A stretch of 45,945 nt of DNA, taken from the IMG/VR virus record IMGVR_UViG_3300032223_000773, positions 1-45,945 of that record. One strand, 5' to 3'. Source of the DNA: a virus. Position 1 is the first letter of the stretch. Every line of letters begins with the position of its first letter. The translations under genes were made by a program, and so were the position numbers. The notes under the pieces are model-generated. The model was not told the origin of the DNA. It saw nothing but the letters and a program-made list of their open reading frames with translations, and made no database searches. This document shows, piece after piece, positions 1 to 40,103 of this stretch.

Positions 1-1125
1 AACGCAACTCTAGTGGTTGCATCAGCCGCCTTCACTGTAGCCAATGCGGCTAACTCTATTGCATCAGCCGCCTTTGGCAATGCTAATGCCACATTGGTAG
101 TTGCTTCAGCAGCTTTTGGAAATGCTAATGCTGCTCTAGTAGTAGCTTCGGCCGCATTTACAAACGCCAACTCGACTCTTGTTGTGGCTTCGGCTGCATA
201 TGATAAAGCCAATGCGGCTAACTCTATTGCATCTGCGGCTTTTGGTAATGCTAACGCCACACTGGTTGTTGCTTCAGCAGCTTTTGGTGTAGCTAACGCA
301 GCCTTTGGTAATGCTAACGCAACTCTAGTGGTTGCATCAGCGGCTTTTGATACAGCTAATGCAGCTTTTGGTTTTGCTAATGGTGTATCAACCAATACCA
401 CAGCAGCTTTCGCTAAAGCCAACGCAGCCAATATTATAGCATCAGCCGCTTTCGGTAACGCAAACGCTACATTGGTTGTGGCTTCAGCCGCATATGATAA
501 AGCTAATGCCGCCAATGTTATAGCATCTGCCGCATTTGGTAATGCTAACGCCACATTGGTTGTAGCTTCGGCTGCATTTGGTGTAGCTAACGCAGCCTTT
601 GGTAATGCTAACGCCACATTGGTTGTGGCCTCAGCGGCTTTTGGTGTAGCTAACTCAGCCTTTGGTAATGCTAACGCAACTCTAGTGGTTGCATCAGCCG
701 CCTTCACTGTAGCTAACGCAGCCTTTGGTAACGCAAACGCTACATTGGTTGTAGCCTCAGCGGCTTTTGGTGTAGCTAACGCAGCCTTTGGTAATGCTAA
801 CGCAACTCTAGTGGTTGCATCGGCCGCCTTCACTGTAGCCAATGCGGCTTTTGGTAATGCTAACGCCACACTGGTTGTAGCTTCTGCCGCTTTCAATGCT
901 GCAAACAGCGCCTCATTAAATTTGGCTAATGCCTATGCGTTCTCAAATACCACAGCATCAGCTAATAATAATACAGGCGCTTTGAAAATTGCAGGTGGTG
1001 TCGGTGTAACAGGTAATGTTTATACAGCCACGGCAATTGGTTATGCTAACAGCACATCAAATGTTAGCGCAGTATATACTTTCTATAATAAAACAACAAA
1101 TTCACTTGATACGGTATTTGGATAA
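1..1125 (+). CDS. Ala/Asn-repeat tail fibre protein (5' end outside window)
   Basis: The frame is open at base 1, so the gene starts upstream of the window; the GTG at 13 is only an internal Val codon. About 300 residues are a degenerate repeat alternating units of the type SAAFGNANATLVVA, SAAFGVANAAF and SAAYDKANAAN, very rich in Ala, Asn and Val. The last 60 residues change character and contain a TGALKIAGGVGVTGN stretch, a motif common near the C-termini of phage tail-fibre proteins. The regular small-residue pattern suggests an elongated fibrous, probably trimeric, shaft; this is inferred. The stop codon overlaps the next start (TAATG), so this gene and the LamG adhesin are translated together. 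A role in host attachment at the virion tail is likely from family resemblance and context. Confidence 0.8.
   Translation, partial: NATLVVASAAFTVANAANSIASAAFGNANATLVVASAAFGNANAALVVASAAFTNANSTLVVASAAYDKANAANSIASAAFGNANATLVVASAAFGVANAAFGNANATLVVASAAFDTANAAFGFANGVSTNTTAAFAKANAANIIASAAFGNANATLVVASAAYDKANAANVIASAAFGNANATLVVASAAFGVANAAFGNANATLVVASAAFGVANSAFGNANATLVVASAAFTVANAAFGNANATLVVASAAFGVANAAFGNANATLVVASAAFTVANAAFGNANATLVVASAAFNAANSASLNLANAYAFSNTTASANNNTGALKIAGGVGVTGNVYTATAIGYANSTSNVSAVYTFYNKTTNSLDTVFG
10..900 (+). repeat. Near-identical DNA repeats inside fibre gene
   Basis: At the DNA level the repeat units are nearly identical, not just similar as protein. The 20-mer GGTAATGCTAACGCAACTCT recurs near 308, 664 and 790, and its end is seen again at base 1. 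Units of about 42-45 and 66-69 bases are shuffled along the shaft. This arrangement favours copy-number change by recombination or slippage. All units stay in frame, so the array is coding, not an intergenic repeat. Confidence 0.85.
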
Positions 1126-3380
1126 TGCCTACAGTTAATAGATTAGATTCGGTTGGAAATTTATCCATAACTAATACAGGTATTTTTGATGAAGTAACAC
1201 CAATAATATCTGCTGGTAGTTTATCATTTAATGGTTCTTCACAATATTTGACCGTTGGTTCTACGACTGATTTTCAATTTCTACATGATGACACTTCAGA
1301 TTTTACTATAGAAGCATGGATTTATCCGACATCTGTTTCAACTACTATTCAACCAGCAATCATTACTACAGCGGCAATTTCTAGTAATATTGGCGTCGCA
1401 TTTTATATTGGTAATTTTAATGATGGTGATATTGGTTTATATTTTTTCAATGGTTCGACTGGTTCTTTAGCAGGTAGAGTAACAGGCGCTAATGCTGTAG
1501 TTCTAAATGTTTGGCAACATATAGCAGTTACATTTACAGCTTCTACAAAAGCTATTGCAATATATGTCAATGGTATTGCTAAAACAACTACAGTTGTTGG
1601 AACTGATCCAGCTGTTAGATCATATTCATCTTCACCATCATCATATGTTATGGCTATTGGAAGACAACAATATGCAACTCCTTCTGGTTATTTTTCGGGA
1701 TATATGTCTAATTTGAGAATTACAAAATCTATTGTATACTCTTCTAATTTTACGCCACCAACATCTATTCTCACATCAATAACAAATACTTCATTACTAT
1801 TAAAAGTAGTTAATAGTTCATCATACATAACTGATTCTAGCCCTAATGCTTTTACGGTAACAAATAATGGTTCTGTAACTTATAATACAGCATCACCTTA
1901 TGGTGCATCTGGCTCTGTTCGAACAATATCAAATACCGTTTATCAAATTTCAGGTACATTAGATGAAATTTCTATATCACCTTTAAACCAGTATTCGGCC
2001 TCTTTTAATGGTGCTAATCAATATTTCACAACATCAGATAACGCAGCATTACAATTTGGTACTAGTGACTTCACAGTTGAAGCCTGGGTATACTTAAACT
2101 CTTTAACTTTTTCCTCAACACAGAAAAGATTTTGGTCATATCAAGGTGCCGGATCAAATACAGTTTTATGGGTTGGTGTAACAAGCGGTTTAAAATTTTC
2201 TGGTGAAATGCGAAGTTCAATTGGTTCAAATGATATTCAAATTTTAGGAACTACAAGTGTTCAAGGTAATACTTGGTATCATGTAGCATTTGCTCGTAAA
2301 GGAACAACAGCTACACTTTATGTAAATGGTGTTGCAGAAGGTTCTAATACATCTATGAACCAAAGCTTAGATAGCGGAAATCCAGCTATTGGTGCATATT
2401 ATAATACCTCCGGTGCTGGATCTCCAGGAGACTTTTGGTCTGGTTATATTTCAAATCTTCGACTATTAAAAGGTAGAGCAGTTTACACCTCTAATTTCAA
2501 TCCACCAACGGCACCACTGACTGCAATAGCCAATACATCATTGCTCACTTGTCAAAATGCAACGATAATTGATAACTCACCAAATGCACTAGCATTAACA
2601 AACAACGGTGCTGTAACAACATATAACTCACCAAATCCGGGTTTTTATTCTAATCTTTTTGATGGTAGCAGTAAATATCTTTCTGTTCCAAATGGTGCCG
2701 TGTCTAGTTTAGGAACAGCAACAGATTTTACATTAGAAGCTTGGATATATCCAACAACATTAACACCTGGTGGAGGTGGATTATCTAACGGCATTGCTTT
2801 GTTTGGTGCATATGGTGCAACAGGTACAATTACTGGTTTTAGTTTTTTTGTTTTAGATACTGGCGCTTTATACTTTAGTTCTTATATTGGCGCTACTCAA
2901 CAATATCTACAAGCTACAAATAATTTCGTTACCACTAATAGTTGGCAACATGTAGCAATCACGCGCTCAGGTTCAACATATAGAATGTTTGTTAATGGTG
3001 TGTCTGTAACATTTACAGGTTCAATAACACAATCACTGGATACTACTAATCCAGTTAATATTGGTGGATTAGTATTTAACACATACTATGACTATTTTAC
3101 TGGATACATTTCTAACGCTCGTATTCTTAAAGGTACAGCATTATATACAGCAAACTTTACTCCACCATATACACAATTACCAGTTATAGCCAATACATCA
3201 TTGCTTACATGTCAATCATCAACAATTATTGATAAATCACCTAATGCTTTTACAATAACAAACAATGGTGGTGTTACTATTATTCCTCCTCCTCCATATA
3301 ATACAGTGATGAAACAATTTTCTAATGGTGACTGTTTTATTGAAGGAATATTTGATGAGACAGTTACCACTCTAACATAA
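1125..3380 (+). CDS. Triple LamG-domain tail adhesin
   Basis: A 751-residue protein with three copies of a laminin-G/concanavalin-A-like lectin domain, roughly residues 30-215, 285-475 and 505-705. Each begins with an SFNGSSQYLTV-like strand, continues with FTIEAWIYPT, WQHIAVT and YVNGIA motifs, and ends with SGYMSNLRITKS and a FTPPT segment. Between domains there is a DSSPNAFTVTNNG-like linker. LamG_3 domains bind carbohydrate or protein ligands, so this is probably a receptor-recognition or accessory adhesin on the tail fibre. The start overlaps the stop of the repeat fibre (TAATG). No signal peptide is seen. The three domains differ clearly at the DNA level, so the duplication is old compared with the repeats of the preceding gene. 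Confidence 0.85.
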   Translation: MPTVNRLDSVGNLSITNTGIFDEVTPIISAGSLSFNGSSQYLTVGSTTDFQFLHDDTSDFTIEAWIYPTSVSTTIQPAIITTAAISSNIGVAFYIGNFNDGDIGLYFFNGSTGSLAGRVTGANAVVLNVWQHIAVTFTASTKAIAIYVNGIAKTTTVVGTDPAVRSYSSSPSSYVMAIGRQQYATPSGYFSGYMSNLRITKSIVYSSNFTPPTSILTSITNTSLLLKVVNSSSYITDSSPNAFTVTNNGSVTYNTASPYGASGSVRTISNTVYQISGTLDEISISPLNQYSASFNGANQYFTTSDNAALQFGTSDFTVEAWVYLNSLTFSSTQKRFWSYQGAGSNTVLWVGVTSGLKFSGEMRSSIGSNDIQILGTTSVQGNTWYHVAFARKGTTATLYVNGVAEGSNTSMNQSLDSGNPAIGAYYNTSGAGSPGDFWSGYISNLRLLKGRAVYTSNFNPPTAPLTAIANTSLLTCQNATIIDNSPNALALTNNGAVTTYNSPNPGFYSNLFDGSSKYLSVPNGAVSSLGTATDFTLEAWIYPTTLTPGGGGLSNGIALFGAYGATGTITGFSFFVLDTGALYFSSYIGATQQYLQATNNFVTTNSWQHVAITRSGSTYRMFVNGVSVTFTGSITQSLDTTNPVNIGGLVFNTYYDYFTGYISNARILKGTALYTANFTPPYTQLPVIANTSLLTCQSSTIIDKSPNAFTITNNGGVTIIPPPPYNTVMKQFSNGDCFIEGIFDETVTTLT

Positions 3381-6102: not shown

Positions 6103-7318
6103 GTATATTGAACCTGAAACATTCAAGTCAATCTATGACCTAAAAATACCTCCAGGCTATCAAGCTGAATTTCAGTTCTTCTACGGTTATCAGATTGATC
6201 AGATACGAAATCTGATTGCCGAATGGGCCAAACGATATGACTATCTGTTTTCCGTTGATAGTGATATAATTGTTCCATCTGATTGCCTTGAAAGAATGAT
6301 AGATGCTAATGTGGATATTATCAGTGGCCTTTATATTCAGCGTAAAGAAAATGAGCATGTGTTAGAAATCTTCACACATGATGCCAGAACAGGAAATATT
6401 CAGAATGTTCCTTATGAATGGATCGAACACTCAGGTATATTTGAAATATCAGCTTGCGGTTTTGGTTGTGTTCTAATCAAAGGTGAAGTATTCAGAACTT
6501 TACAATATCCGCACTTTGTTTATATATCTGCGCTTGATCACAAAGACACTAAGTCGGAAGATGTCTACTTCTGTAAGAAAGCCAAACAGGCCGGCTTTAA
6601 GGTATGGGCTGATGCTGATATTATATGCGATCATGTTGGTCGGAAAATATTTAAGGTCAGACCTAAGAGTAAAGAATTAACGGTTGATGAGAGATTACAA
6701 GAACTACACGATCAAAGGCTTCTACCAAGAAGCCACACCGAATATCTAAATTCTATGGGAATTAACCCTAAGGTCGTATTTGATATTGGTGCTGGTGCTA
6801 TTCACTGGACCACAGAAGCCAAAGAGGTCTGGCCAGATAGTAAGTTTGTTCTTTTCGAGGCTATGAAAGAAGCCAAGAACCTTTATGAGAAGTATAGATA
6901 TGATTATCATCTGGTGGTTCTATCAGATGAAGATAACAAGATTGTTAAATTCTATAATAGACCAAAAGATTTCGGTGGTAATTCATACTATAAAGAAAGA
7001 GGTGATTTCTTCCAAGAGGTACATGCTCAAGATAGACTTACGGTTACCCTAGATACGCTGGTTAGAGTAGCTAATATACCTCAACCAGACCTTATTAAGA
7101 TGGATGTCCAAGGCGCTGAACTAGATATTATTAAAGGTGCGACTAAGACCTTAGAGAACTGTAAAGACCTGATATTAGAACTCCAGCATGTGGAATACAA
7201 CCAAGGTGCTCCGCTTAAAGACACTGTGATCATGTACCTTAGGAATCTAGGGTTCGAACTGGTAACCAACTTTACCTCTACGGAGGTGGATGGTGATTAC
7301 CACTTCCAGAAAATATAA
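6068..7318 (+). CDS. GT-A-like domain fused to FkbM-type methyltransferase
   Basis: 416 residues. The N-terminal 200 residues resemble a glycosyltransferase of the GT-A fold: ILIAVPTNKYIEPETF at the start, then FSVDSDIIVPSDCLERMI containing a DSD acidic motif, and a later KSEDVYFCKKAKQAGFKVW. The C-terminal 180 residues are an FkbM-type SAM-dependent methyltransferase: VVFDIGAGAIHWT is motif I, LIKMDVQGAELDIIKGA is the typical FkbM block, followed by LILELQHVEY. FkbM enzymes usually O-methylate sugars. The start lies 35 bases inside the preceding gene, after an AAGGA site, so the two genes are probably co-translated. Together they could add and methylate a sugar chain. The stop is followed by a TATAAATA late promoter. 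Confidence 0.8.
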   Translation: MKRILIAVPTNKYIEPETFKSIYDLKIPPGYQAEFQFFYGYQIDQIRNLIAEWAKRYDYLFSVDSDIIVPSDCLERMIDANVDIISGLYIQRKENEHVLEIFTHDARTGNIQNVPYEWIEHSGIFEISACGFGCVLIKGEVFRTLQYPHFVYISALDHKDTKSEDVYFCKKAKQAGFKVWADADIICDHVGRKIFKVRPKSKELTVDERLQELHDQRLLPRSHTEYLNSMGINPKVVFDIGAGAIHWTTEAKEVWPDSKFVLFEAMKEAKNLYEKYRYDYHLVVLSDEDNKIVKFYNRPKDFGGNSYYKERGDFFQEVHAQDRLTVTLDTLVRVANIPQPDLIKMDVQGAELDIIKGATKTLENCKDLILELQHVEYNQGAPLKDTVIMYLRNLGFELVTNFTSTEVDGDYHFQKI

Positions 7319-19786: not shown

Positions 19787-19815
19787 TTGACAATCTACCT
19801 GAGTTGGTCTATAAT
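19787..19815 (+). promoter_or_regulatory. Consensus sigma70 promoter TTGACA-17-TATAAT
   Basis: Both hexamers are perfect and the spacer is the optimal 17 bases, immediately after a terminator. It should be the strongest host-type promoter in the window, driving the operon from 19839 on, through small early genes toward RNase H. Confidence 0.92.
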
Positions 19816-29608: not shown

Positions 29609-30166
29609 ATGTTCCGTCTTAAAATAACCGCTTTGGCGGCTGCGATACTGGCTATGTCAGTGGCATCCACCGAAGCAGCGAAGATAAAGAACAGAACAGG
29701 TTCAACATATAGTTGCACAGTTCAAAATAATAATGAAGTCTGCATAACGAACCAGGCTGAATGGCCTCAACCTTATGAAGACAATAATTCTAAAGTTATC
29801 TTAGAAGCCGAAAAGCATATTGGTTTACACGCTAATAAAGATAGAAATAAATTACAATCAATGATACATGTCGATCCAGTGGTTACACCGTGGTGTGCTG
29901 CATTTGTCAACACCATACTGGAAAAAATAGGTGTGAAGGGTACAGGTTCTCTTACAGCAATGAGCTTTGCTTCATATGGTAAGGTGACCAATGAACCCAA
30001 AAAAGGAGATATCGTTGTCATGAGAACCCATGTTGGATTCTTCGATAGTTATGAATACATACATGGTGTGAAATATGTTAGAGTGCTGGGCGGCAATCAA
30101 GCTAGAATGGTAAAAGTTGCCCATTATCCAGCAAAAAGAGTAGTTTCTTATAGGACACTTTCGTAA
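29609..30166 (+). CDS. Secreted CHAP-like peptidoglycan hydrolase
   Basis: 185 residues with a signal peptide (MFRLKITALAAAILAMSV ... EAA) and a downstream CHAP/NlpC-like amidase domain. VTPWCAAFVNTILEKIGVKG gives the catalytic Cys, KKGDIVVMRTHVGFFDSYEY the His region, and YVRVLGGNQARMVKVAHYPA the closing block. Matches the family of CHAP-like proteins seen again in the minus-strand hub gene. It may act in the periplasm on peptidoglycan or on incoming phage. AAAAGGAC precedes the ATG. The 75-base gap before it holds a CTAAATAG sequence but no gene. Confidence 0.8.
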   Translation: MFRLKITALAAAILAMSVASTEAAKIKNRTGSTYSCTVQNNNEVCITNQAEWPQPYEDNNSKVILEAEKHIGLHANKDRNKLQSMIHVDPVVTPWCAAFVNTILEKIGVKGTGSLTAMSFASYGKVTNEPKKGDIVVMRTHVGFFDSYEYIHGVKYVRVLGGNQARMVKVAHYPAKRVVSYRTLS

Positions 30167-30446: not shown

Positions 30447-30483
30447 TTTGACTAAGAGAAAATTATATAAAAGAGTAAGAAGA

Positions 30484-30513
30484 GGGTCTATCAGAAATGA
30501 TAGGCCCTTTTTT
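30484..30513 (+). terminator. Rho-independent terminator
   Basis: GGGTCTATCA pairs with TGATAGGCCC through 10 bp around GAAA, then six T. It lies inside the open frame upstream of the PhoH ATG and thereby argues for the downstream start at 30532. Confidence 0.92.
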
Positions 30514-30531
30514 GTTTCCAAAGGAGATAAC

Positions 30532-31239
30532 ATGAGCAAAAAGCCTAAGAATAACTCAAACAATAAGAGCCAAATGCAGCACAATCACTTTGAACTTCGC
30601 TCAATAAAACCACTAACAGCAAACCAACAAATGACATTTGATTATTACAGAAAAGGCTATAATCTAATGCTGCACGGCTATGCAGGAACAGGCAAAACAT
30701 TCTGCGCCTTCTATCTTGCTCTAGAAGAGTTATTGACAGGCAAATCAAATTATGATAAGATCATTCTCATTCGTTCAGTTGTACCTTCAAGAGAAATGGG
30801 ATTTTTACCAGGTTCTATCCGTGAAAAGATAGCCATCTATGAAGAGCCATACAAAGAGATTTGTGATGATCTGTTTGGTCGTGGTGATGGCTACAACATT
30901 CTCAAGATGAAGAACATGGTGCAATTCACTACCACATCATTCCTTCGTGGTCTAACATTCAATAATGCCATAGTTATTGTTGATGAAACAAACAACATGA
31001 CATTCCAAGAAATCGATACTGTCATGACCAGACTAGGTAATGAAAGCCGTGTGATCTTCTGTGGTGACTATAGACAGTCCGATCTAACTAAGCCACATGA
31101 GAAGACTGGCATCCGTGAGTTTATGGCTATCACTCGCAGAATAAATACATTCAAACATGTTGAGTTTGAAAAAGAAGACATTGTTCGCTCAGGTGTGGTC
31201 AGAGACTACATCATCAATAAAACGGAATTAGGGCTATGA
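30532..31239 (+). CDS. phoH: PhoH-like ATPase
   Basis: 235 residues from ATG 30532 (AAGGAG upstream); an upstream in-frame start would read through a terminator. LHGYAGTGKTFCAFYLALEE has Walker A at residues 49-56, IIVRS-type IILIRSVVPSREMGFLPGSI and IVIVDETNNMTFQEID has Walker B with Glu. CGDYRQSDL is motif III. Phage PhoH proteins are common in the cyanophage/rhizophage branch; their role in phosphate stress is uncertain, and RNA helicase/nuclease-type activity has been discussed. Next gene starts in its stop (ATGA). Confidence 0.92.
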   Translation: MSKKPKNNSNNKSQMQHNHFELRSIKPLTANQQMTFDYYRKGYNLMLHGYAGTGKTFCAFYLALEELLTGKSNYDKIILIRSVVPSREMGFLPGSIREKIAIYEEPYKEICDDLFGRGDGYNILKMKNMVQFTTTSFLRGLTFNNAIVIVDETNNMTFQEIDTVMTRLGNESRVIFCGDYRQSDLTKPHEKTGIREFMAITRRINTFKHVEFEKEDIVRSGVVRDYIINKTELGL

Positions 31240-31400
31240 AGAAAGATCATAAAGCAGATGCTATGATTACCTTTAGAAAGAAGATTGATGCTAAGAGGCT
31301 TGTGCCTACTAGATCAGGTTCAAAAGGTGGTGATGGTGGTTCAGGCGGAGGCGCTGGGGGAGGCTCAGGCGGCGGTGCTGGTGGTGGCGGTGGTAAATGA
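31236..31400 (+). CDS. Small peptide with Gly-rich tail
   Basis: 54 residues, read directly from the sequence. A basic N-terminus (KKDHKADAMITFRKKIDAKR), then GSKGGDGGSGGGAGGGSGGG ending in GGGGK. Starts on the PhoH stop (ATGA) and its stop is overlapped by the nuclease start (ATGA), so the frame is confirmed by coupling on both sides. The Gly-rich tail is low-complexity and may be a flexible tether. No family known. Confidence 0.65.
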   Translation: MKKDHKADAMITFRKKIDAKRLVPTRSGSKGGDGGSGGGAGGGSGGGAGGGGGK

Positions 31401-32080
31401 AGACATTTAATTATGTGCAGGGGCTGCCTTTGTTGCAGCCCCTAGTTAGTGAAGAAGTTGCTGGTAAAAGACATTATATAACACCAAATGGTATGAAAGT
31501 TCCTTCTGTTACTACCGTACTAGGTCATTTCAAGAAAGAAAAGATCAACGAATGGCGAAACAGAATTGGTCATGAAGAAGCGCAGAAGATTACCAACCGA
31601 GCCTCAACACGAGGCACAAAATTCCACAATCTACTGGAAAAGTATGTCAGCAATGAACATTCTATGATGTTTGAGAATGTTATGCCTGATATGAAACAAG
31701 CCTTTCGAGACATTCAACCCACTCTTGACAGAATAGACAATATACACTATATTGAATCTCCACTCTGGTCAGAGAGAATCGGTTTAGCCGGTAGGACAGA
31801 TGTGATTGCAGAATTTGATGGAGTGCTTTCCATTATCGACTTCAAGACCTCATTGAAGCCAAAGAAAGAAGAATGGATTGATAATTACTTCGAACAAGGA
31901 ACAGCTTACTCTCTCATGTATAAAGAAAGAGTTGGCAGAACAATCAATCAGGTCGTCATCATTATATCAGTAGATGGTATGACAGAGCCACAAATTTTTG
32001 TGAAAGAGCCGATTGATTATCTCGATTCACTGATCAAGAAAGTGTGGCTCTATAGAAAGGAACATCCGCATGTTTGTTGA
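31397..32080 (+). CDS. PD-(D/E)XK (RecB/Cas4-like) exonuclease
   Basis: 227 residues. VPSVTTVLGHFKKEKINEWR at the start, RGTKFHNLLEKYVSNEH, and the catalytic block GLAGRTDVIAEFDGVLSIID followed by FKTS, which is the D-x-n-(D/E)xK motif with a Lys at residue 154. Similar nucleases are common in cyanophage-type T4 relatives beside phoH. A 5'-3' or 3'-5' exonuclease acting on DNA ends is likely. It overlaps the glycine-rich peptide gene (ATGA) and the next gene. Confidence 0.82.
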   Translation: MKTFNYVQGLPLLQPLVSEEVAGKRHYITPNGMKVPSVTTVLGHFKKEKINEWRNRIGHEEAQKITNRASTRGTKFHNLLEKYVSNEHSMMFENVMPDMKQAFRDIQPTLDRIDNIHYIESPLWSERIGLAGRTDVIAEFDGVLSIIDFKTSLKPKKEEWIDNYFEQGTAYSLMYKERVGRTINQVVIIISVDGMTEPQIFVKEPIDYLDSLIKKVWLYRKEHPHVC

Positions 32081-32285
32081 TCTTTGGGTTGTATGTATCT
32101 TCTCAATTCTTTTCGGAGTGTGCGCCGTATGGAATTACACAAGAGGTCTTCATATTGGTGTTGAGAAGACGCTAGATAAACTTCTTGAAGATAAAATTAT
32201 CCGAATTGTGAATGATCGTGTAGTTCGCTATACACCTACAACGAGAAGAAGAAATAAGAGGTCTGCTATTGACACCTCAGCCTGA
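32070..32285 (+). CDS. Small single-membrane-segment protein
   Basis: 71 residues. Residues 2-22 are hydrophobic (FVDLWVVCIFSILFGVCAVW), the rest is charged and ends in Arg-rich TTRRRNKRSA. It starts 11 bases inside the nuclease gene with AAGGAAC upstream. A late promoter lies 7 bases after its stop, so it is the last gene before the tmRNA. Function unknown. Confidence 0.6.
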   Translation: MFVDLWVVCIFSILFGVCAVWNYTRGLHIGVEKTLDKLLEDKIIRIVNDRVVRYTPTTRRRNKRSAIDTSA

Positions 32286-32291
32286 CTATGA

Positions 32292-32299
32292 TATAAATA
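32292..32299 (+). promoter_or_regulatory. T4-type late promoter TATAAATA before tmRNA
   Basis: Exact consensus match about 14 bases before the first conserved base pairs of the tmRNA acceptor piece. It places the tmRNA under late transcription and makes the acceptor piece the first RNA segment. Confidence 0.65.
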
Positions 32300-32305
32300 T
32301 AGTTG

Positions 32306-32578
32306 CTTAGGTCGTTGAGGCGAACAGAATAGACGATTCGGACGCGGGGGCAGTACCCGCCCACTCCACCATGGATACAGGACGCATAAGAGAAGAAATT
32401 CTCGGGTAGTGAGCTTCGCTACAGCCTGTATCTTTGATGGGGTGGAAATAGGTTCGACGGGTTGTAGTAAAAGAACGAGTAGACCGAAGGCAAAAAAACT
32501 AAATGCAAACGATAACTTTGCTCCTGAGGCTTTCGCTCTAGCAGCGTAATCCCCACGGGTATGGGCTCCACCTCGGAA
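32306..32578 (+). ncRNA. ssrA: Circularly permuted two-piece tmRNA (alphaproteobacterial type)
   Basis: The acceptor piece comes first and ends in CCA at 32369-32371. Its T-arm is GCGGG (32344-32348), a 7-base loop GGCAGTA and CCCGC, then CCACTCC, discriminator A and CCA. The coding piece starts at G32439 with GGGGTGG, which pairs with CCACTCC through all seven positions; pair 3 is G-U (32441-32365), the alanine identity of tmRNA. GGTTCGACGGG (32451-32461) is the conserved tmRNA 5' block. The resume codon is GCA at 32505, and the tag reads ANDNFAPEAFALAA followed by TAA at 32547-32549. The intervening 32372-32438 segment is removed in this class. TCGTT (32312-32316) can pair with AACGA (32474-32478) as a P2-like helix. 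Outer ends are approximate (15 bases). Trans-translation rescues stalled ribosomes and marks their peptides for proteolysis. Confidence 0.93.
32374..32432 (+). other. tmRNA intervening segment folding as multi-hairpin
   Basis: GATACAGG (32374-32381) pairs perfectly with CCTGTATC (32425-32432) and closes the spacer between the two pieces. Inside it, GAGAA/TTCTC and GTAGTG/CGCTAC form two further hairpins. This is probably a processing signal, cut out when the two-piece RNA matures. Confidence 0.7.
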
Positions 32579-32617
32579 CAGAACGGGCCCGCTTCACACA
32601 AACACAAGGACTATATT

Positions 32618-32854
32618 ATGGCTAAGAACCCTTTTGAAATCCGCCTTGAACTCCTTCAGATCGCTAACAGCATCCTCTCAGATAAGAATTGGGCTGAACG
32701 AAATCGAATGATCGACGATTACAATAATCAGCGTGAAATCGTAATGAAGAATGGTGAAGGTAAGATACCTTTCTCACCTAAAGTTCCTACTGTTGATGAA
32801 GATGAAATCATTGCTTTGGCCCGTAAGCTGAATGAGTTTGTGTCCAATGGCTAA
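32618..32854 (+). CDS. Small conserved phage protein, unknown
   Basis: 78 residues from ATG 32618 (AAGGA upstream), chosen over a longer frame running into the tmRNA. FEIRLELLQIANSILSDKNW is reminiscent of small cyanophage proteins starting NPFEIR.E.L; the C-terminus has PTVDEDEIIALARKLNEFV. Function unknown. Overlaps the coactivator gene by 8 bases. Confidence 0.65.
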   Translation: MAKNPFEIRLELLQIANSILSDKNWAERNRMIDDYNNQREIVMKNGEGKIPFSPKVPTVDEDEIIALARKLNEFVSNG

Positions 32855-33074
32855 TAAAGAAGAAATAATCGAGTTCTCTATGCAGATTGAAAAGCTTGCA
32901 AAGGAGAAGAATACTTCTTATATGGATGCCATAATTCTCTATTGTGAGAATACAGGTTTTGAGGTTGAAGTGGCTGCAAAGCTTATCTCTAGCAATCTCA
33001 AATCTAAGATCAAGATGGAAGCCGAAGAGCTTCACTTCCTACCTAAATCCAACACCATAAAGTTGCCTCTATGA
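32847..33074 (+). CDS. Late-transcription coactivator, gp33-like
   Basis: 75 residues from ATG 32847. NKEEIIEFSMQIEKLAKEKN, YMDAIILYCENTGFEVEVAA and a HFLPKSNTIKLPL C-terminus match the phage late-transcription coactivator family (T4 gp33-type, cyanophage versions). gp33 links the sliding clamp to RNA polymerase and represses non-late transcription. Its C-terminal hydrophobic tail would contact the clamp. The presence of TATAAATA promoters in the window supports this. Assignment by pattern recognition, not by alignment. Confidence 0.68.
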   Translation: MANKEEIIEFSMQIEKLAKEKNTSYMDAIILYCENTGFEVEVAAKLISSNLKSKIKMEAEELHFLPKSNTIKLPL

Positions 33075-37400: not shown

Positions 37401-37427
37401 AGAGGGGCTTCGGCCCCTCTTTTTTTA
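37401..37427 (+). terminator. Strong Rho-independent terminator after gp32
   Basis: Eight-bp stem AGAGGGGC/GCCCCTCT around TTCG, followed by seven T. The convergent minus-strand gene ends at 37425, so this hairpin may also block read-through from the other side, although the T-run on that strand is weak. Confidence 0.95.
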
Positions 37428-40103
37428 TCTTAGGTTTGTAGCGCCGTGATCAAAATGGCTGCCAGACTTCTTAAAGTTTGAAGCATTAATAGCTCTCTCA
37501 AAACTTGGGCAGGTAAATGGATTGGCACTCATTTGCGTCATAGCATCGAATGATGTATTTGGTGGTGATGGCGAAGGTTGCTTATCACTCATAGGTGCCT
37601 GTTCAGGAGCTTTCTGTTCAGGTTCAGGTGGTTCATTAGGTGCTGGTTCAGGTGCTGCCAAGCTTTCAGGATCATTCTTTGTTGTAGGATTGGCTTCAAG
37701 AGAAACCTCTCCGCCTTCTGCAAGAACCTTGATAGAGTTTTTCTTCTTATCGACCTTCTGCTCAACAATTTTATCCTGCAATTCGTCTTTATGTTCTTCT
37801 AGCTTTTCTCTATGACCAATGACAGGTTCTACATGGACTTTGCCTGTTCTTGGATTATATTCAGCCGTTTCCCTATCAGTATTCATAGTGAATAATGGCT
37901 TAGCATCTTGGTCTACAACCACAGAGTTATCACCTCTTAATCCACCGATTGGATAAGCTGTGATATTTTCTGTCTCAACTTCTTTCTCACCACCACTCGC
38001 AAGAGCCTGCACATTCTCTGGTTTAGTTTCGGCTTGAGCGGTTTGCTTCTGTTCAGCAGGTGGCTGCGCGCCGACCATACCAGGTCCTGCTGTCGGAACT
38101 GTACCAGGTTGGGCTTCTGGTTGCTGACCTTTATCACCGACCTTAACGCCTGTTTGTTCTTGAACCGCAGCAACAGTAGTTTTATCAGCATCACCTCTTT
38201 TAATTGCTGCCAATACTTCAGGATTGTATTGATCTTCGCCTGCTCGGCGCACAGAAACGCTATCGGCTGAAACCCATTGCTTGCTAACTTTATCACCTTG
38301 ATTACCGCCTAGCATCTCGATCTGCATTTCACCACGAGATCCAATTCTCGTTTTACCTGTAGATAGTCCAACATGCGAACCATCTCTCATAGCCAATATA
38401 TCACCCGCCGAGGTTTCTTCGGCCGTTTTTTGCTGGCCCCAATTCAAATATGATCTGGCCAGATTTGATCCAGAATGTTTGATACCTTGCTGTGCTAGTG
38501 ATGCGTTAACGAAAGCAGCGCACCATGGTCCTTGATTAGTATCAATATCTGTTGCACCTTGAAAATAATCAGCAGTTTTTCCAGCTTTCTTCAAATAAGC
38601 TTTGATCTGTTCTTTATCATTTCTTTCATGGGCACCTAGCAATTCTACAGCTTTATCAATGACACTGGCCTGATACTTGACTGTACCTGTAGCAGACTCG
38701 GCTATAACTTTATGTGCATCGCTTTGTGTTTTTGGTATATCAATGTTGCCACCTTTATATCCAACCATACCTGGACCTGCAACTACGGTTGTACCTGGTT
38801 GAGCAACTGCATCAGGATTTTTTTTGAATGTATCGTTTAATTTAGCAACTTGCGCTTCAGGGCTATCACCCATCTTACTCAAGGCCTGATTAAATCTTTG
38901 CTTTTGACCAGGATTCAGTGACTCATAATACTCTGCTACCTTAGGATCAACACCTGCCGGTAAGTTTTTAGGAACTTCTGTGAGATTAGCCAAATGCTGT
39001 TCTTGATCAGCTCTTATTTTTTTCTTAGCCTCTTGTATCTGGTCGGGTGTAGGATTATCATTTATACCAAGACCTTCTTTCAGAGTTTCTATCTTGCCTG
39101 GTCTTACACCACCCTCTTGCTTTTGAATAGCATCAAGCAAGACCTTTCTCTGGTCTTCGTTTAGACTTGACATTCTTGTGGTTGGTGGTAGGCCTAGAGA
39201 CTTTGATACATTTGCAATATATGCGGCCGTATTGTTTTCATTAGGTGGTGCGTATGCGGATATAGCACCTTCAATGGTGTTATCTTTATATCTGCGACCT
39301 TCAAATAGAAGTTGGCTTTTAGCTGCACGACCAGCTTCAGGTGACGAGAAGATAGCAAATCTACCATCTGTACCGATAGCACCTTTAGATTTAGCAAAGT
39401 CACCGTATTCTAGATTGCCTGGATTATTGTTTCTCCAGTTTCTATCACCTGTTCTGCTTTCTACTTTACCGTCCGCATATTCGACAACGGTTGGTTGGCC
39501 ATGACCAGCAGACACGACCTTTGTAACCACTCTCTGTTCAGAGGCTTTAGCTTTGATTTCTTCTTCTGAAACTTCTTTTCTAACGAAAGAACCATCATCT
39601 TTCTTTTCGATACCAGCTTTCTTGAGGTCAGCAGGCGATAGCTCTTTCAAAAAGCCAACTCTAGGATCATCAGGCGGTAATGCTCCGCTTTCTAGAGCCT
39701 TTAGTGTATCTAATTTTATCTGCGATAGTTGAGCTTTAGCGCCTGGATCGGAAACATTTACACCAGTTTCTTGCTCTAGTTTTTCCATCCATGCAGGCTT
39801 ACCGGCAGATTTCGCAGGCTGTGCGGTTGGTCTACCTGATTGGTCACCTGTTTCCGCACTATATGTTTTACCTACTGAACCAGCATACGCCGAACGACCT
39901 TCACCTGTCATAGCAGCCAAGAATCCTGAAATATCAGGCAGCTTTCTTTTGTAGTAATCGGGGAACATACTAGAAAGCTGTTCAGGAGTCAAAGAAGATA
40001 GCAATGCACGACCTTGCTGGTCTTGCATCATCGAAAGTCTTTCTTCATTCGTCAGTTTCAATAAACTTTTATAATCTATTGTCTGGTTATGAAACTTGGC
40101 CAT
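37425..40103 (-). CDS. Large tail/baseplate protein with transglycosylase- and CHAP-like domains
   Basis: 892 residues. The N-terminus is helical (DYKSLLKLTNEERLSMMQDQ). RNWRNNNPGNLEYGDFAKSK, then SPEAGRAAKSQLLFE and ISAYAPPNENNTAAYIANVS mark a phage lytic-transglycosylase-like domain, residues about 215-310. A CHAP-like domain, about 505-620, has GPWCAAFVNASLAQQGIKHS, a GDILAMRDGSHVGLS block and EMLGGNQGDKVSKQW, closely related in layout to the secreted hydrolase at 29609. The C-terminus is Pro/Glu-rich and disordered, with ANPFTCPSFERAINASNFKK at the end. Probably a baseplate-associated cell-wall-degrading protein that opens peptidoglycan on entry. It follows gp26 and a small gene on the minus strand. 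Confidence 0.78.
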   Translation of the reverse strand: MAKFHNQTIDYKSLLKLTNEERLSMMQDQQGRALLSSLTPEQLSSMFPDYYKRKLPDISGFLAAMTGEGRSAYAGSVGKTYSAETGDQSGRPTAQPAKSAGKPAWMEKLEQETGVNVSDPGAKAQLSQIKLDTLKALESGALPPDDPRVGFLKELSPADLKKAGIEKKDDGSFVRKEVSEEEIKAKASEQRVVTKVVSAGHGQPTVVEYADGKVESRTGDRNWRNNNPGNLEYGDFAKSKGAIGTDGRFAIFSSPEAGRAAKSQLLFEGRRYKDNTIEGAISAYAPPNENNTAAYIANVSKSLGLPPTTRMSSLNEDQRKVLLDAIQKQEGGVRPGKIETLKEGLGINDNPTPDQIQEAKKKIRADQEQHLANLTEVPKNLPAGVDPKVAEYYESLNPGQKQRFNQALSKMGDSPEAQVAKLNDTFKKNPDAVAQPGTTVVAGPGMVGYKGGNIDIPKTQSDAHKVIAESATGTVKYQASVIDKAVELLGAHERNDKEQIKAYLKKAGKTADYFQGATDIDTNQGPWCAAFVNASLAQQGIKHSGSNLARSYLNWGQQKTAEETSAGDILAMRDGSHVGLSTGKTRIGSRGEMQIEMLGGNQGDKVSKQWVSADSVSVRRAGEDQYNPEVLAAIKRGDADKTTVAAVQEQTGVKVGDKGQQPEAQPGTVPTAGPGMVGAQPPAEQKQTAQAETKPENVQALASGGEKEVETENITAYPIGGLRGDNSVVVDQDAKPLFTMNTDRETAEYNPRTGKVHVEPVIGHREKLEEHKDELQDKIVEQKVDKKKNSIKVLAEGGEVSLEANPTTKNDPESLAAPEPAPNEPPEPEQKAPEQAPMSDKQPSPSPPNTSFDAMTQMSANPFTCPSFERAINASNFKKSGSHFDHGATNLR

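Follow-up and report, generated by a model that had tools for sequence, protein, structure and literature searches.

Genetic organization of the tmRNA locus

The stretch of DNA analysed here (hereafter the window), a virus record of 45,945 bases, represents part of the genome of a T4-like virus. On its + strand, 32305-32593 encode a circularly permuted, two-piece tmRNA of the alphaproteobacterial type, and the gene is complete. The window encodes T4-like proteins including gp32 (PF08804), a T4 RNase H C-terminal domain, GP88, a gp48-like baseplate tail tube cap, PhoH, an exonuclease, and gp33, and also contains B12-type ribonucleotide reductase (RNR) genes. Two ORFs (29609-30166 and 37425-40103) both match the baseplate hub/tail lysozyme family phrog_1259, the smaller of which also gives a weak CHAP-domain match, below the Pfam cut-off. 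The tmRNA gene lies between the exonuclease gene and a 78-aa ORF that is followed by the gp33 gene, all on one strand, and the features of the locus are as follows.

30448..31239, + strand: PhoH-like gene, conserved upstream neighbour (PF02562, E 3.1e-44; synteny)
31397..32080, + strand: PD-(D/E)XK exonuclease gene, conserved upstream neighbour (phrog_298, E 6e-68; PF12705; synteny)
32269..32274, + strand: -35 box of the tmRNA promoter, TTGACA (matches the consensus exactly; the -10 box follows after 17 nt)
32292..32299, + strand: -10 element TATAAATA, a T4-type late motif overlapping a sigma70-like TATAAA
32305..32371, + strand: acceptor piece of the tmRNA, ending in an encoded CCA (32369-32371); 5' end placed from the promoter
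32334..32340, + strand: acceptor-piece strand of the P2 helix (CGA-U-UCG), pairing with 32458-32464 in the RF04321 alignment
32344..32360, + strand: T-arm (GCGGG-GGCAGUA-CCCGC; RF01849 and RF04321 alignments, two-strand fold)
32372..32438, + strand: intervening segment of 67 nt, predicted to be removed to give two pieces (inverted repeat, folds)
32439..32593, + strand: coding piece of the tmRNA, its 3' end set where the Rfam match stops
32505..32549, + strand: tag frame ANDNFAPEAFALAA plus TAA, running from GCA to TAA (ARAGORN, translation)
32618..32854, + strand: small ORF (78 aa) directly downstream of the tmRNA
32832..33074, + strand: gp33-like late-transcription coactivator gene, conserved downstream neighbour (PF16805, E 3.7e-20)

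A covariance search with the alpha-tmRNA model of Rfam (RF01849) matched 32265-32593 with 116.4 bits (E 3.3e-31; gathering score 50), covering model positions 1-355 completely, and the tmRNA_permuted model (RF04321) matched 32310-32549 at full length (1-213) with 103.9 bits (E 2.5e-19; gathering score 47). Matches of this strength are far beyond chance. ARAGORN independently called a permuted tmRNA at the locus with the tag ANDNFAPEAFALAA, the same as that obtained by direct reading. The proposal of the sequence-only reading that this is a phage-encoded, alphaproteobacterial-type permuted tmRNA is thus fully supported by ARAGORN, both Rfam models, the T4-like gene context, and the tree described below. 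That reading placed the gene at 32306-32578, which is the right locus but slightly short, as the conserved 3' block ACCTCGGAACAGAACGGGCCCGCT extends to about 32593 and the likely 5' end is at ~32305.

The acceptor piece precedes the coding piece and encodes its own CCA, a requirement of the permuted form. Its 3' strand, CCACTCC (32361-32367), is followed by the discriminator A and CCA (32368-32371) and forms a seven-pair acceptor stem with GGGGTGG (32439-32445) at the start of the coding piece, including the alanine identity pair G3-U70 (G32441-U32365); the pairing and the G-U at position 3 hold on direct reading as they had been described. A two-strand fold of the predicted pieces recovered the 7-bp acceptor stem and the T-arm. 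In the RF04321 alignment, the two pieces are also joined by a P2 helix of six standard pairs (CGA-UUG, UCG-CGG), whereas free, unconstrained folding of the two strands picks another pairing for this region and the acceptor piece's 5' portion. The coding piece contains the SmpB-site block GGTTCGACGGG at 32451-32461 and the tag frame at 32505-32549, both noted earlier from the sequence. The tag has a resume codon, a stop, and a hydrophobic, Ala-rich end, ALAA, as in many alphaproteobacterial tags.

The intervening segment lies within an inverted repeat whose arms (32361-32381 and 32425-32445) are 81% complementary, and in the precursor the insert is predicted to fold as a long helix prolonging the acceptor stem. 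The fold of 32372-32438 is branched: a 9-bp stem carries two hairpins. Among relatives, inserts range widely in length, from about 8 to 500 nt.

The window tmRNA shares with cellular alphaproteobacterial tmRNAs (RF01849; Caulobacter type) the permuted order, the G3-U70 acceptor stem, the T-arm, the resume region, and the 3' ACAGAA block. It differs in having a shorter acceptor side, where the helices are incomplete, and a shorter 3' domain, most of which is missing. Its score of 116 bits compares with 143-313 bits for the full-length cellular matches above the cut-off, plus one at 73 bits, and is like those of the tmRNAs of phages Melnitz and Phosso (107-108 bits). Against RF04321, it shows only normal variation.

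Phage relatives and shared gene order

The closest published parallel is the two-piece alpha-type tmRNA of the Methylophilales phage Melnitz EXVC044M (MZ577097; PMC9004378), which has the tag ANDNYVPVDYALAA. The two phages share the order PhoH, PDDEXK nuclease, tmRNA, gp33 and a promoter of the form TTGACA-17-TATAAATA. They differ in the insert (142 nt in Melnitz, 67 nt in the window), in what follows gp33 (a helicase loader in Melnitz, unidentified ORFs in the window), and in the presence of a glutamine riboswitch between tmRNA and gp33 in Melnitz only; downstream of the window tmRNA, a search for this riboswitch gave no match at E up to 1. The glutamine riboswitch is rare among tmRNA phages (PMC9004378) and is a non-defining feature of this group of loci. 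The Melnitz aptamer lies at 3111-3159 of its locus (L003), after the end of the tmRNA match (3103) and before gp33 (3416), and because of this position 3' of the tmRNA and 5' of gp33, it more likely acts on gp33 than on the tmRNA.

The sequence-only reading considered a permuted phage tmRNA uncommon, a view that the wider comparison does not bear out: such genes are already known and are common in aquatic phages. Of 133 distinct phage tmRNA structures reported, 53 are two-piece, and 50 of these 53 come from marine or aquatic phages (PMC9004378). A pattern scan of IMG/VR for the resume region returned at least 120 stretches, and we assembled 123 oriented loci from the IMG/VR stretches listed together with Melnitz, Phosso, and the window. 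Among the matches listed, permuted tmRNAs were recovered in dozens of the 123 loci (ARAGORN or acceptor pattern), gp33-like ORFs in 71/123, the exonuclease in 52/123, and PhoH in 43/123; in an iterative search, ORFs related to the 78-aa ORF were among the matches listed for 13/123 loci, while this ORF had no Pfam or PHROG match. Intact tag frames are kept across the relatives of the window tmRNA. Named phages included no close nucleotide relatives over the first 20 kb of the window beyond short matches to RNR and thymidylate synthase genes, and the tmRNA region drew only five nucleotide matches among them. One named phage in the set, Sinorhizobium phage Phosso (PV764938.1; 469-kb genome), contains an unannotated permuted tmRNA at 349.5-350.3 kb (L002, 2402-3091) with an insert of about 410 nt, which scored 113 bits with RF04321 and 108 bits with RF01849 and was missed by ARAGORN.

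In a tree, the window tmRNA grouped with four other viral tmRNAs (support 100/96), and all 24 bacterial sequences fell together with one long-branch virus row (support 99/95). Built on a 140-nt core with few columns, the tree shows no more than that the window's sequence was not newly copied from any of the host genes sampled.

A composite promoter upstream of the tmRNA

The sequence upstream of the acceptor piece, TTGACA-17-TATAAATA, joins a sigma70 -35 box to a T4 late -10 box. It is the only site of the form TTGA[CT][AT]-16..18-TATAAATA in the window. A simple promoter and terminator scan, which accepts only T as the final -10 base, missed this TTGACA/TATAAA promoter; the same scan found no intrinsic terminator between the tmRNA and gp33. 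T4 late promoters start transcription about 6 nt past the TATAAATA element, and tmRNA transcription likely starts near 32305. The late motif is TATAAATA in T4 and NATAAATA in cyanophages (PMC2984593). The window holds four copies of TATAAATA, a number that by itself is no more than chance; all four are oriented along the + strand and immediately precede an ORF or the tmRNA, the other three being at 7314, 27218, and 42653, the last before the tail tube cap gene. In Melnitz, TATAAATA precedes the major capsid, sheath, tail-tube assembly, and baseplate genes, so that in this phage group the motif stands before late genes as a T4-type late promoter does. The gp33 gene is present in the window, and gp55 was not seen in this fragment. 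Elsewhere in the window, TTGACA-17-TATAAT occurs without mismatch at 19787-19815; over the window as a whole, sites with at most two mismatches to it number 28 versus 9.1 in shuffled sequences, about three times commoner.

The element recurs at the same place in related loci. Among 37 distinct gp33-linked phage tmRNAs, TATAAATA lies upstream of the acceptor piece in 31, the commonest distance to the CCA end being 76 nt, and the -35 box is present as well in 29. Bacterial permuted ssrA genes (69 distinct) have TATAAATA in the same interval in a single case and the composite in none (0/69), the usual -10 box of cellular alpha ssrA being TATATA or TATAAT. Over 967 kb of viral loci, which share ancestry and are not independent trials, the -35 box accompanies 48 of the 61 TATAAATA sites at tmRNA genes versus only 6/150 elsewhere, and in Melnitz, 2 of 25 TATAAATA sites are composite, one of them that of the tmRNA. 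This within-contig contrast is strong. Regular expressions recovered acceptor pieces in only 65/123 loci, and since they catch only part of these pieces, the phage acceptor and promoter counts are lower bounds.

The composite occurs in none of the bacterial ssrA genes examined and scarcely at other places on the phage contigs, which argues that the phage controls the tmRNA gene. In T4-like phages without MotA, namely RB49 and the cyanophages S-PM2 and Syn9, a single gene can be served by an early and a late promoter that overlap (reviewed in PMC2984593). In the window, unlike in RB49, S-PM2, and Syn9, the -35 and the late -10 box, 17 nt apart, make up a single composite site, which is tied to the tmRNA gene. 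The principle is therefore already known, and what we did not find reported is its fixed use for tmRNA: the literature searched, that open without subscription, gave no earlier description of a composite early/late tmRNA promoter. The Melnitz tmRNA promoter was called early on the basis of sigma70 prediction (PMC9004378). The sequence-only reading suggested a role late in infection, for which the T4-type late -10 element is circumstantial support; the same promoter has a sigma70 -35 box, and expression early as well as late would fit better than late alone. The composite promoter, seemingly usable both early and late, is the feature for which we met no precedent, and suggests that the early-only timing proposed for Melnitz merits re-examination. 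It also offers a direct handle on when in infection the phage needs its tmRNA.

Proposed function and alternatives

We consider that the window gene is a working, phage-resident permuted ssrA that performs ordinary trans-translation and keeps ribosomes cycling (probability roughly 0.87). Transcription would begin at ~32305, first by host polymerase and, as infection proceeds, by the late machinery. In the precursor, CCACTCC would pair with GGGGTGG across the structured 67-nt insert, and host RNase P and 3' processing enzymes would cut out the insert to leave two RNAs, the acceptor RNA with its CCA end and the coding RNA, which the acceptor stem and the P2 helix would hold together. Host alanyl-tRNA synthetase would charge the acceptor RNA via G3-U70, and SmpB would bring the charged tmRNA to stalled ribosomes. 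Host SmpB is assumed because a scan of window proteins, covering part of the ORFs of a fragmentary contig, recognised no smpB. The ribosome would then move to the tag frame, add Ala-ANDNFAPEAFALAA, and stop at TAA, by which it would be freed and its product marked for ClpXP-type proteases. These roles in freeing ribosomes and in tagging, which the sequence-only reading had raised, are putative. The benefit to the phage would be that ribosomes are kept cycling while host and phage mRNAs are cut. Host SsrA is stable and abundant in T4-infected E. coli, and the authors of that work speculated that it keeps ribosomes available (PMC9697503); this fits a need for rescue during mRNA degradation.

Could the phage RNA instead act as a decoy, a dominant-negative tmRNA that competes with host tmRNA and slows rescue or alters tags to the advantage of the phage? 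The tag-less tmRNA-like RNA of phage DS6A inhibits endogenous tmRNA in E. coli, as cited in PMC11915505, and the window RNA is trimmed relative to cellular tmRNAs. However, it retains a full tag frame with a stop, a normal resume region, and the ALAA end, and a pure decoy would not need the intact frames kept across its relatives; we regard this role as improbable. Marginally less probable still is selective tagging, as proposed for Melnitz (PMC9004378), in which the phage tmRNA would mainly serve to degrade host or chosen proteins early and recycle their amino acids. Early transcription is compatible with the sigma70 -35 box, but the argument for early timing alone did not weigh the T4-type late element in the same promoter, and tmRNA acts on stalled ribosomes, with no known means of choosing host proteins. 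Although ssrA is a frequent prophage integration site and fragments of it can be found in prophages (PMC9004378), and the tmRNA family is plainly of alphaproteobacterial type, a piece of bacterial ssrA without a role of its own, caught by imprecise excision, as an integration-site copy, or in a chimeric contig, is the least credible origin and was rejected on synteny, tree, and promoter: the gene is complete and sits inside a T4-like cluster, its neighbours recur in Melnitz and across many independent contigs, it groups with other viral tmRNAs, and its promoter element is phage-specific (found in 1/69 bacterial genes).

Ordinary trans-translation by a phage-controlled tmRNA leaves room for a more tentative proposal, to which we give slightly less than even odds: T4-like phages of alphaproteobacteria and other aquatic bacteria may have turned the promoter of a captured ssrA into a composite early/late one, providing tmRNA throughout infection, and the gp33 message may also have the tmRNA as its leader, released by processing, which would tie ribosome rescue to the late-transcription switch. 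The leader is suggested by the closeness of gp33 on the downstream side and the lack of a recognisable terminator in the window. Use of the composite promoter both early and late would follow from its two elements. The window tmRNA is a clear added case in a published, little-studied group of phages with their own ribosome-rescue RNA.

Unusual tags occur in some of the other phage loci, among them a 29-residue tag, ANDNASNVFSFVDFSNARKYVNEDFALAA, and a doubled start, ANDNIANDNYSEYRLAA (L073, 3691-4257; L011, L066, and L113); doubled tags like ANDNIANDNYSEYRLAA are also found in some alphaproteobacteria.
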